Positions 1 to 6,547 of a DNA stretch of 21,271 nt are shown here, one piece after another; position 1 is the stretch's first letter, and each line of letters opens with the position of its first letter. Both the position numbers and the translations under genes were made by a program. The stretch spans positions 1 through 21,271 of the IMG/VR virus record IMGVR_UViG_3300024520_000561; one strand, 5' to 3'. The stretch is from a virus. The notes beneath the pieces were generated by a model. It saw only the letters and a list, made by a program, of their open reading frames with translations, made no database searches and was not told the DNA's origin.

Positions 1-51
1 AATTAGGACTGAGTCTATGCCATGACTGGTAAGCATTGGTTGCTTGCTCAT
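1..51 (-). CDS. partial leftward ORF, N-terminus only, unknown function
   Basis: Seventeen codons are visible (beginning MSKQPMLTSHGID) before the window edge. The start ATG lies at 51-49 on the minus strand and overlaps the stop of the upstream leftward gene in an ATGA junction. A GAGGTG Shine-Dalgarno sequence (minus strand, about 62-57) sits 5 nt before the ATG, which is the main reason to believe it. It is probably co-translated with the 64-residue gene at 48-242. Nothing about function can be said from so short a piece. Confidence 0.55.
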   Translation of the reverse strand, partial: MSKQPMLTSHGIDSVLI

Positions 52-242
52 GCTGCCACCTCTGCTACTAGTGCCTTGATGTCAGCTATAAGGTTGTTGC
101 TTAACTCAAGGGTAGACATGGTAGACCAGTCGGTTAGCAAGGCTGGCGTGCCTGCTGTTGTGTATACGTCTGATACGTCCTCGCCTGTTAGACCATAGTA
201 TGCGTCCTGATGATTGTATGCTTGCTCGGTTGATGTGTTCAT
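48..242 (-). CDS. small leftward protein, 64 aa, unknown
   Basis: This is a 64-residue ORF read from the ATG at 242-240. That start is preferred over an in-frame ATG farther upstream because AAAGG lies 9 nt before it on the minus strand. The protein is soluble-looking and rich in Thr/Ser and acidic residues, with an Ala-rich, probably helical C-terminus (DIKALVAEVAA). I do not recognise the family. It opens a leftward unit divergent from the virion operon: two candidate leftward promoters lie upstream (276-303 and 319-346), and the next leftward gene starts inside its stop codon. Its strand makes it a candidate for non-virion phage functions, but that is inference from position only. Confidence 0.6.
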   Translation of the reverse strand: MNTSTEQAYNHQDAYYGLTGEDVSDVYTTAGTPALLTDWSTMSTLELSNNLIADIKALVAEVAA

Positions 243-275: not shown

Positions 276-303
276 ATAATAGCAGGTTACGCGCAACATG
301 CAA
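276..303 (-). promoter_or_regulatory. candidate extended -10 promoter, leftward
   Basis: On the minus strand TTGCAT (303-298) is followed after 16 bp by TATTAT (281-276), preceded by TGC to give an extended -10 (TGCTATTAT). Transcription would start near 269, leaving a leader of about 27 nt to the ATG at 242. The -35 matches consensus poorly (3 of 6) and the -10 well (5 of 6). Confidence 0.4.
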
Positions 304-318
304 GCACTCATTCACATA

Positions 319-346
319 ATTGTACCCACCCGACAAGCGGTATACA
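319..346 (-). promoter_or_regulatory. second candidate leftward promoter beside the repeat element
   Basis: On the minus strand TACAAT (324-319) is a 5 of 6 match to the -10 consensus. A poor -35, TGTATA (346-341), lies 16 bp upstream. It is listed because the TTGACTA element at 350-376 stands in nearly the same geometry to it as the equivalent element does to the strong capsid promoter at 5521-5549. A weak -35 behind a conserved upstream site would fit an activated promoter. This is inference from spacing. Confidence 0.3.
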
Positions 347-349
347 TGG

Positions 350-376
350 TTGCATAGTCAACTACTGCCTAGTCAA
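350..376 (-). repeat. TTGACTA pair, leftward copy of a composite element
   Basis: The minus strand reads TTGACTA (376-370), 8 bp, TTGACTA (361-355), one base, GCAA (353-350). The same pattern, with identical 15-bp start-to-start spacing and the same GCAA one base after the second unit, occurs on the plus strand at 5490-5516 before the capsid promoter. It is probably a binding site for a regulator, since direct repeats at 15-bp pitch upstream of promoters are typical operator/activator layouts. The protein is unknown. Confidence 0.6.
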
Positions 377-5292: not shown

Positions 5293-5311
5293 TCCCAGCA
5301 TGGGACTACAG

Positions 5312-5334
5312 ACCCCCTTTATTGGGGGTTTTTT
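5312..5334 (+). terminator. rho-independent terminator after the scaffold gene
   Basis: ACCCCC (5312-5317), a 6-nt loop TTTATT and GGGGGT (5324-5329) are followed by a run ending in six T (5329-5334). This is a textbook intrinsic terminator on the plus strand. A smaller hairpin (TCCCA GCA TGGGA, 5293-5305) precedes it. It separates the packaging/portal/scaffold transcript from the capsid transcript. Confidence 0.92.
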
Positions 5335-5489: not shown

Positions 5490-5516
5490 TTGACTAGTAA
5501 ACCATTGACTAAGCAA
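5490..5516 (+). repeat. TTGACTA pair, rightward copy of a composite element
   Basis: TTGACTA (5490-5496), 8 bp, TTGACTA (5505-5511), one base, GCAA (5513-5516). The -35 hexamer TTGACA begins at 5521, so it forms a third, slightly diverged unit at 16-bp pitch. The arrangement matches that on the minus strand at 350-376. The element ends 4 bp before the -35, the position expected for an activator or overlapping repressor site. Confidence 0.65.
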
Positions 5517-5520
5517 TTAG

Positions 5521-5549
5521 TTGACAACGAAACGGGGTGCTGGTATAAA
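5521..5549 (+). promoter_or_regulatory. strong sigma-70 promoter for the capsid transcript
   Basis: TTGACA (5521-5526), a 17-bp spacer and TATAAA (5544-5549), with TG one base before the -10. The -35 is perfect, the spacing optimal and the -10 matches at 5 of 6 positions with an extended -10. The predicted start is near 5556, giving a 128-nt leader to the capsid ATG. Host RNA polymerase would use this promoter well unless repressed. The spacer carries CGAAACGG (5528-5535), an inverted copy of CCGTTTC found at 5462-5468 and 5620-5626, a possible operator. Confidence 0.88.
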
Positions 5550-5583
5550 GCATATATCTTCCTACCGCTACCCTTTCTATAGG

Positions 5584-5628
5584 CCGGAACAGGATTTAAC
5601 CAGATTTGGCTAAATCGCTCCGTTTCGG
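5584..5628 (+). other. stem-loop 1 in the capsid mRNA leader
   Basis: The outer stem CCGGAAC (5584-5590) pairs with GTTTCGG (5622-5628) through 7 bp including one G-U. An asymmetric internal loop (AG / GCTCC) follows, then an inner stem GATTTA-A-CCA (5593-5602) with TGG-C-TAAATC (5607-5616), broken by one mismatch and closed by a 4-nt GATT loop. It lies about 28 nt from the predicted 5' end of the transcript. A role in mRNA stability or translational control is inferred. Confidence 0.6.
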
Positions 5629-5632
5629 ACAC

Positions 5633-5663
5633 ACGATTAACCAAAAAAGCAGTACTTAATCGT
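5633..5663 (+). other. stem-loop 2, perfect 8-bp inverted repeat before the capsid ribosome site
   Basis: ACGATTAA (5633-5640) and TTAATCGT (5656-5663) are exact reverse complements separated by 15 nt. The stem ends 7 nt before the Shine-Dalgarno GAAGGGA (5671-5677) of the capsid gene. It could act as an mRNA-stabilising or processing structure, or as a dyad operator at the DNA level. Confidence 0.65.
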
Positions 5664-5683
5664 AACTATAGAAGGGACATAAT

Positions 5684-6547
5684 ATGTCTACTAGTTTAAC
5701 TAACGTTGCCTCAATTGAATTTGACAATGAAGTAAAGCACGAATACCAAGGGGCAGCTTCGCTCCGTAATACCGTAACAGTTCGTACCGGCGTAGTGGGT
5801 GGTTCATACCGTTTCGCTCGTATGGGTAAAGGCATGGCTAACCAAAAAGCTATCCAAGCCGATGTTACTCCAATGGATATTTCACACGCACGTCAAACCG
5901 CCATTCTAGGCGATTGGAATGCACCGGAATACACCGATATCTTCGCTCAGGCAGAAGTAAACTTTGACGAAAAAGCAGAGCTGGCGCAAAGTATCGCTAA
6001 AGCTATGGCTCGTCGTGAAGATCAGATAATCATTGACGCTATTGAAGCTGCTACATTCGCTGCAACTAACGACTCTAATCCTGATACTGCGCGTGTTGAA
6101 GATATTTCAGCTACTCGTAACTTCGATTTGGCATCTATTCGTACAGCTAAAGGTCATTTAGATGATATTGAAGCTGATAGCGCTGACCGTCATATCGTTC
6201 TTCGTGCTCAAGCATTGCAAGAGTTGTTGTCTGACAGCACTGTAACTAGCGGCGATTTCAACACTGTTCGCGCACTTGTTAACGGTGAGCTTGATACTTA
6301 CATGGGCTTCAAATTCCATGTTATAGGTACTCGCGCTGAAGGCGGCTTGTCTGGTGTTGCTGCTGACCGTACAGCTTATGCTTATACTAAAGCGGCTATT
6401 GGTTTAGCTATTGGAATCGACATGACTACTAATATCGACTGGATTGCTCAGAAGACTTCATGGTTGTGTAATGGTTGCTTTAAAGCTGGCGCGATTGTTC
6501 GTGAAGCTCAAGGCATTGTTAAAATTCAATATGATGAGGGTGTATAA
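5684..6547 (+). CDS. major capsid protein, HK97 fold
   Basis: This 287-residue protein follows the scaffold and its own strong promoter, as expected of the most abundant virion protein. Features typical of HK97-type capsid proteins are visible. An N-terminal segment (residues 1-45) leads into a beta-hairpin (GSYRFARMGKGMANQKA). A long spine helix follows (EKAELAQSIAKAMARREDQIIIDAIEAA, residues 95-125), then an A-domain with LRAQALQELLSD and YMGFKFHVIGTRAE. The C-terminal strand pair is AGAIVREAQGIVKIQYDEG. GAAGGGA lies 6 nt before the ATG. It is shorter than T7 gp10A (345) but in the range of other podoviral capsid proteins. No frameshifted second form is evident. Confidence 0.92.
   Translation: MSTSLTNVASIEFDNEVKHEYQGAASLRNTVTVRTGVVGGSYRFARMGKGMANQKAIQADVTPMDISHARQTAILGDWNAPEYTDIFAQAEVNFDEKAELAQSIAKAMARREDQIIIDAIEAATFAATNDSNPDTARVEDISATRNFDLASIRTAKGHLDDIEADSADRHIVLRAQALQELLSDSTVTSGDFNTVRALVNGELDTYMGFKFHVIGTRAEGGLSGVAADRTAYAYTKAAIGLAIGIDMTTNIDWIAQKTSWLCNGCFKAGAIVREAQGIVKIQYDEGV

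Follow-up and report, generated by a model that had tools for sequence, protein, structure and literature searches.

What could place the same composite sequence, in opposite orientations, upstream of two distant genes of a small phage, and which kind of protein would read it there? In the window analyzed here (the whole stretch of viral DNA, 21,271 nucleotides long), the pattern TTGACTA-N8-TTGACTA-N-GCAA occurs at 376-350 on the minus strand and at 5490-5516 on the plus strand. An earlier note on this DNA had described both copies, and they are indeed exact: the 18 specified bases and both spacings match at each site, and the first units extend further, at both sites, as TTGACTAG. A search of the whole 21-kb record gave just these two copies, even with three mismatches allowed (0.02 expected), and both lie in intergenic DNA, which according to our own gene list makes up 1185 of the 21,271 bases. 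An exact tandem pair of 7-mers that recurs elsewhere at equal spacing was obtained in one of 300 dinucleotide shuffles, and the real window holds this pair alone. The pattern is therefore real and exact, and chance is an unlikely source of it.

The record represents the structural half of a small podovirus, with Methylophilales phage MEP301, Pelagibacter phages and small Vibrio podoviruses as its kin. Its genes encode the terminase large subunit, a head-tail adaptor, a scaffold-like product, the major head protein, tail and other virion proteins, a tail fiber or spike, an endopeptidase and a holin, and no RNA polymerase gene is in view in the 21 kb of this podovirus record. Judging from relatives of 32-38 kb, the record would be a fragment that lacks about one third of the genome, or more. 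The following features surround the two copies:

48 to 242, minus strand: first leftward open reading frame (64 aa, no family match).
5310 to 5331, plus strand: terminator-like hairpin with a T run, after the scaffold-like gene, which it separates from the capsid promoter.
5684 to 6547, plus strand: gene of the major capsid protein, which the capsid promoter serves (match to PHROG 3437, major head protein, with E 1.6e-54).

A second leftward reading frame overlaps the first at position 51 and continues past the left end of the record, and a search for relatives of the leftward frame found none. There is also a direct repeat, ACCCCCCAAYAYTYCCAAG, whose copies at 453-471 and 500-518 lie 47 bp apart in the DNA that separates the leftward unit from the terminase unit.

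Conservation in related phages, on which the earlier note had staked its proposal, is not seen: the pair at the capsid site is absent from about 55 relatives, and the left arm has no comparable counterpart in any related phage. Recurrent tandem pairs found in ten relatives correspond to contig ends or to local or low-complexity repeats, with no intergenic analogue recognized among them. The nearest of these relatives reach 70-78% protein identity at best, and the collections may omit records very near the window, so that the absence excludes an operator common to the family, which we rejected since the pair is missing at the corresponding promoters, and leaves room for one restricted to a lineage. 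Judged from these genomes, the pair is lineage-specific.

The element is better described as two 12-bp dyads of the form TTGnCTAnnCAA, 15 bp apart, where the GCAA of the original pattern forms the second dyad's right arm:

350 to 376, minus strand: putative left double operator, with dyad 1 (TTGACTAGGCAG) at 376-365, the 3-bp spacer TAG, and dyad 2 (TTGACTATGCAA) at 361-350.
5490 to 5516, plus strand: putative capsid double operator, with dyad 1 (TTGACTAGTAAA) at 5490-5501, the spacer CCA, and dyad 2 (TTGACTAAGCAA) at 5505-5516.

At each site the second unit fits TTGnCTAnnCAA exactly and the first with one mismatch, the imperfect first units carrying CAG and AAA in place of CAA. The four 12-bp units show 5, 4, 4 and 4 dyad pairs out of 6, a level of at least 4 that is reached by 3.2% of 12-mers, and the symmetry at the proposed centers amounts to 17 of 24 pairs (11 at the next best offset). 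Across the two intergenic regions covered, pairs of such dyads with this 15-bp period occur at 350 and 5490 only. The TTGACAA at 5521 resembles a third unit, but with 2 of 6 dyad pairs it is actually the -35 of the capsid promoter. The element is very probably a protein-binding site common to the two upstream regions, and the pair is probably functional, its operators belonging to a known kind but sitting in an unusual location. Our literature search on the dyad sequences returned no relevant paper, and a TrpR-like operator, which we also considered, was dropped for a resemblance that is only partial.

The kind of operator is suggested by bacterial genomes. When viral contigs were scanned for the 18 bases, ten matches appeared, several of which are arrays of the 12-bp dyad TTGnCTAnnCAA with a 15-bp period. 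A generalized double dyad was derived from those phage arrays and then sought in 85,000 GTDB bacterial genomes, where it occurs 35 times, in ten cases beside a gene of the MarR family, either within about 60 bp of it or overlapping the gene start. These ten are scattered over several phyla (Enterococcus, Trichococcus, Lactococcus, Paenibacillus, three Burkholderiales, two Acidobacteriales and Marinomonas), and a Pfam scan of eight of the ten genes placed all eight over the MarR cut-offs. An operator matrix was built from the ten MarR-linked sites (L287, L290, L298, L300, L302, L304, L305, L308, L315 and L316). It gives 31.8 bits to the capsid site and 28.7 bits to the left site, the latter slightly under the range of the MarR operators themselves when left out one at a time (29.8-41.8 bits). 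The best score in 300 shuffled windows was 17.4 bits, and ten related phage genomes reached at most 11.2 bits. About 80 contigs picked solely for a TTGACTA-N8-TTGACTA pair peaked at 22.7 bits, which indicates that the bases of the window outside both heptamers also fit the MarR sites.

Because the dyad pattern was generalized from matches to the window's own pattern, part of its likeness to the window follows from how it was derived; the proximity to MarR genes does not, nor do the scores of the window sites above those of chance TTGACTA pairs. The raw numbers of viral-contig matches are not used as evidence, since a reversed-pattern control gave 22 matches versus 10 for the pattern. In 369 genomes of one bacterial class the strict double dyad occurs once, in the query genome; strict double dyads are rare in bacteria, and host proteins that recognize exactly this site may therefore be uncommon. 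Among the earlier claims, that of a composite direct repeat has been reshaped by these data: the shared protein site is sustained by the exact recurrence, and the bare direct repeat gives way to units that are dyads of the MarR-operator type.

These scores also bear on the simplest reading, in which TTGAC would be the start of a -35 box, its tandem copies the product of local duplication, and no protein would bind them. Unit 1 of the capsid copy and the -35 region do agree at 14 of 17 bases, the relatives show no conservation, and in the 369 genomes of one class the bare TTGACTA pair does not exceed its reversed control in number. But the equal-spacing recurrence in 1 of 300 shuffles, the confinement of both copies to the small intergenic fraction, and dyads and matrix scores well above those of chance pairs all speak against it, as does the finding of a -10 at 16-18 bp for none of the TTGACTA copies, and we hold chance or promoter-like sequence to be very improbable.

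Our preferred reading, to which we would give a probability of roughly 0.55, is that the elements are double operators for a MarR-type winged-helix regulator, encoded by the phage or by its host, which most likely represses the capsid promoter. No MarR gene was found in the 21-kb window, itself a fragment, or in 16 related phage records, with weak sub-threshold matches only. The MarR family is present in 14 of 14 control genomes, and a MarR protein of the host is possible. The phage-encoded regulator of the earlier note is accordingly one of two equally possible options, as the window offers no MarR or other regulator gene and the host could be the source.

Other phages carry related arrangements. 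Arrays of TTGnCTAnnCAA with two to more than six units and a 15-bp period occur in L201 (10300-10380), L267 (3050-3136), L276 (1472-1528) and related contigs, where they sit just upstream of the small terminase gene, beside a TGCTGCACTGCAACATG motif, in what is one phage group. Since several arrays precede terminase genes, a terminase-binding (pac or cos) site was considered as well; it would leave the copy at the capsid promoter unexplained, and the reading is weakened further by the differences between the terminase proteins of the array-bearing phages. In L203 (485-511), L210 (953-979) and L262 (2835-2861) the double dyad lies within a TTAACAC/GTGTTAA inverted repeat, directly before a gene for a LexA-type winged-helix protein, followed in L262 by the terminase large subunit gene; this arrangement is a candidate autoregulated phage switch.

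This last group raises the possibility of some other dimeric regulator encoded by the phage, either a helix-turn-helix protein of the Cro/CI type or a LexA-like winged-helix one, which would act on both promoters and make the likeness to MarR sites coincidental. It is consistent with the absence of any MarR gene over the cut-off in the array-carrying phages, and with an HTH_3 gene over the cut-off in 4 of the 17 records of the group to which the window belongs. However, the genome scan, which was unselected for gene context, gave MarR as the closest match instead of HTH_3 or LexA, and the matrix-scanned phages with HTH_3 genes do not carry the element. We regard such a regulator as possible but rather unlikely.

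How a MarR-type protein could act at the capsid site depends on the promoter next to it:

5521 to 5549, plus strand: capsid promoter, with -35 TTGACA at 5521-5526, a 17-bp spacer ending in TGG, and -10 TATAAA at 5544-5549.

The -10-like TATAAA noted earlier downstream of the capsid copy has been confirmed in this way: many relatives have a sigma-70 promoter at the matching position relative to the conserved leader and the capsid start, and the capsid promoter is well supported because of it. Transcription would start near 5556. The putative operator would then span about -66 to -40, with 4 bp between its end and the -35. In the scheme that we infer, from the binding and the protein involved to the direction of control and the choice of leftward promoter, each 12-bp dyad would accommodate a single dimer of a MarR-type regulator. 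Encoded by the absent portion of the phage genome or by the host, this one regulator would occupy both the DNA ahead of the capsid promoter and that ahead of the leftward genes. Two dimers standing just upstream of this near-consensus sigma-70 promoter could crowd RNA polymerase, an effect that would end with the loss of the regulator, its titration or its release by a ligand, while the leftward unit would be the target of the left copy. The position upstream of the -35 is weaker for a repressor than that seen in the MarR-linked bacterial cases, where the operator is found close to the beginning of the regulator's gene or right at it.

Activation deserves attention on the same grounds. An activator bound at about -45 and -60 might couple the two units, as the earlier note proposed, by recruiting RNA polymerase both to the capsid promoter and to a weak TACAAT promoter on the left. 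The location of the capsid site upstream of the -35 and the similar distances to the -10-like hexamers (25 bp leftward, 27 bp at the capsid) would allow this. Yet the sequence of the capsid promoter (TTGACA, 17 bp, TGG-TATAAA) already comes close to consensus, and relatives have a similar promoter without any site, for which reasons repression is likelier than activation; TACAAT, moreover, is without a -35, and a better leftward promoter lies nearer the gene. An activator site seems to us improbable.

The transcript downstream of the capsid promoter has features of its own. The leader RNA (5556-5683) folds well below shuffled sequences (z -3.66), with 5572-5582 paired to 5666-5676, a segment containing the Shine-Dalgarno sequence. 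Its motif CCGATACCC..GGCCGG is conserved in most of about 55 relatives, compensatory changes affect 8 of 13 consensus pairs (20 sequences), and Rfam gave no match; the leader looks like an unnamed riboregulator of capsid translation. In part of one subgroup of relatives (L012-L017), AACGTCA or CGTCAA is repeated at 15-bp spacing before the capsid -35, across which GTCAA faces TTGAC, perhaps as a different operator at the same place.

On the left side two candidate promoter elements have to be compared:

276 to 303, minus strand: candidate leftward promoter, with a -35-like TTGCAT at 303-298, a 16-bp spacer, and the extended -10 TGCTATTAT (TGC-TATTAT) at 284-276.
319 to 324, minus strand: TACAAT, the -10 proposed earlier, with no -35 at 16-18 bp and missing from the list of our promoter scan.

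The combination TTGCAT-N16-TGCTATTAT is the likely leftward promoter and fits the leftward reading frame better than TACAAT; it would give a short leader with a Shine-Dalgarno sequence before the ATG at 242. The relatives gave no support for a promoter at 276-303. The leftward promoter is uncertain, and the left copy would be one without a well-placed promoter. TACAAT itself is the less likely -10, having no recognizable -35 and a better extended -10 nearer the gene, and its control by the left copy is conjectural. The earlier idea of an operator or activator coupling the leftward unit to the capsid unit is thus supported for the shared site and the capsid promoter, and conjectural for the control of TACAAT and the phage-encoded regulator.

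The broader proposal, that this podovirus ties capsid and leftward transcription to a MarR-type repressor, possibly one of the host that senses a ligand, is unlikely as it stands. If true, late or packaging genes would have been put under a MarR-type switch more than once, given the double dyad before terminase genes in unrelated phages. How small podoviruses without an RNA polymerase of their own delay their structural genes is poorly known, and a MarR-type pair on the capsid promoter would offer a concrete, testable class of protein and a route by which host stress or small molecules could reach phage timing. An anonymous repeat also becomes a searchable operator matrix.

Several known systems can be set beside these sites. 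The lambda CII sites are direct repeats about 10 bp apart that flank the -35, and like other phage activator boxes they share with the window a short repeated motif beside the -35; here, in contrast, the dyads are 15 bp apart and wholly upstream of it, and the TTGACAA that covers the -35 lacks dyad form, for which reasons a site of the CII type was rejected. The arrays of L201 and L267 and the sites of L203, L210 and L262 share with the window the dyad and its 15-bp period, ahead of late or packaging genes, but they belong to unrelated phages, comprise up to six or more units and, in one group, have a LexA-type winged-helix gene directly downstream. In Escherichia coli, marO contains two separate dyads of the TTG...CAA type bound by MarR dimers, which differ from those of the window in their inner bases and spacing and belong to a drug-efflux regulon. 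The bacterial MarR-linked operators share with the window the 12-bp dyad TTGnCTAnnCAA, its two units, the 15-bp period and the intergenic location; they lie at the start of a MarR gene, whereas the sites of the window lie upstream of a capsid promoter and of a leftward reading frame.
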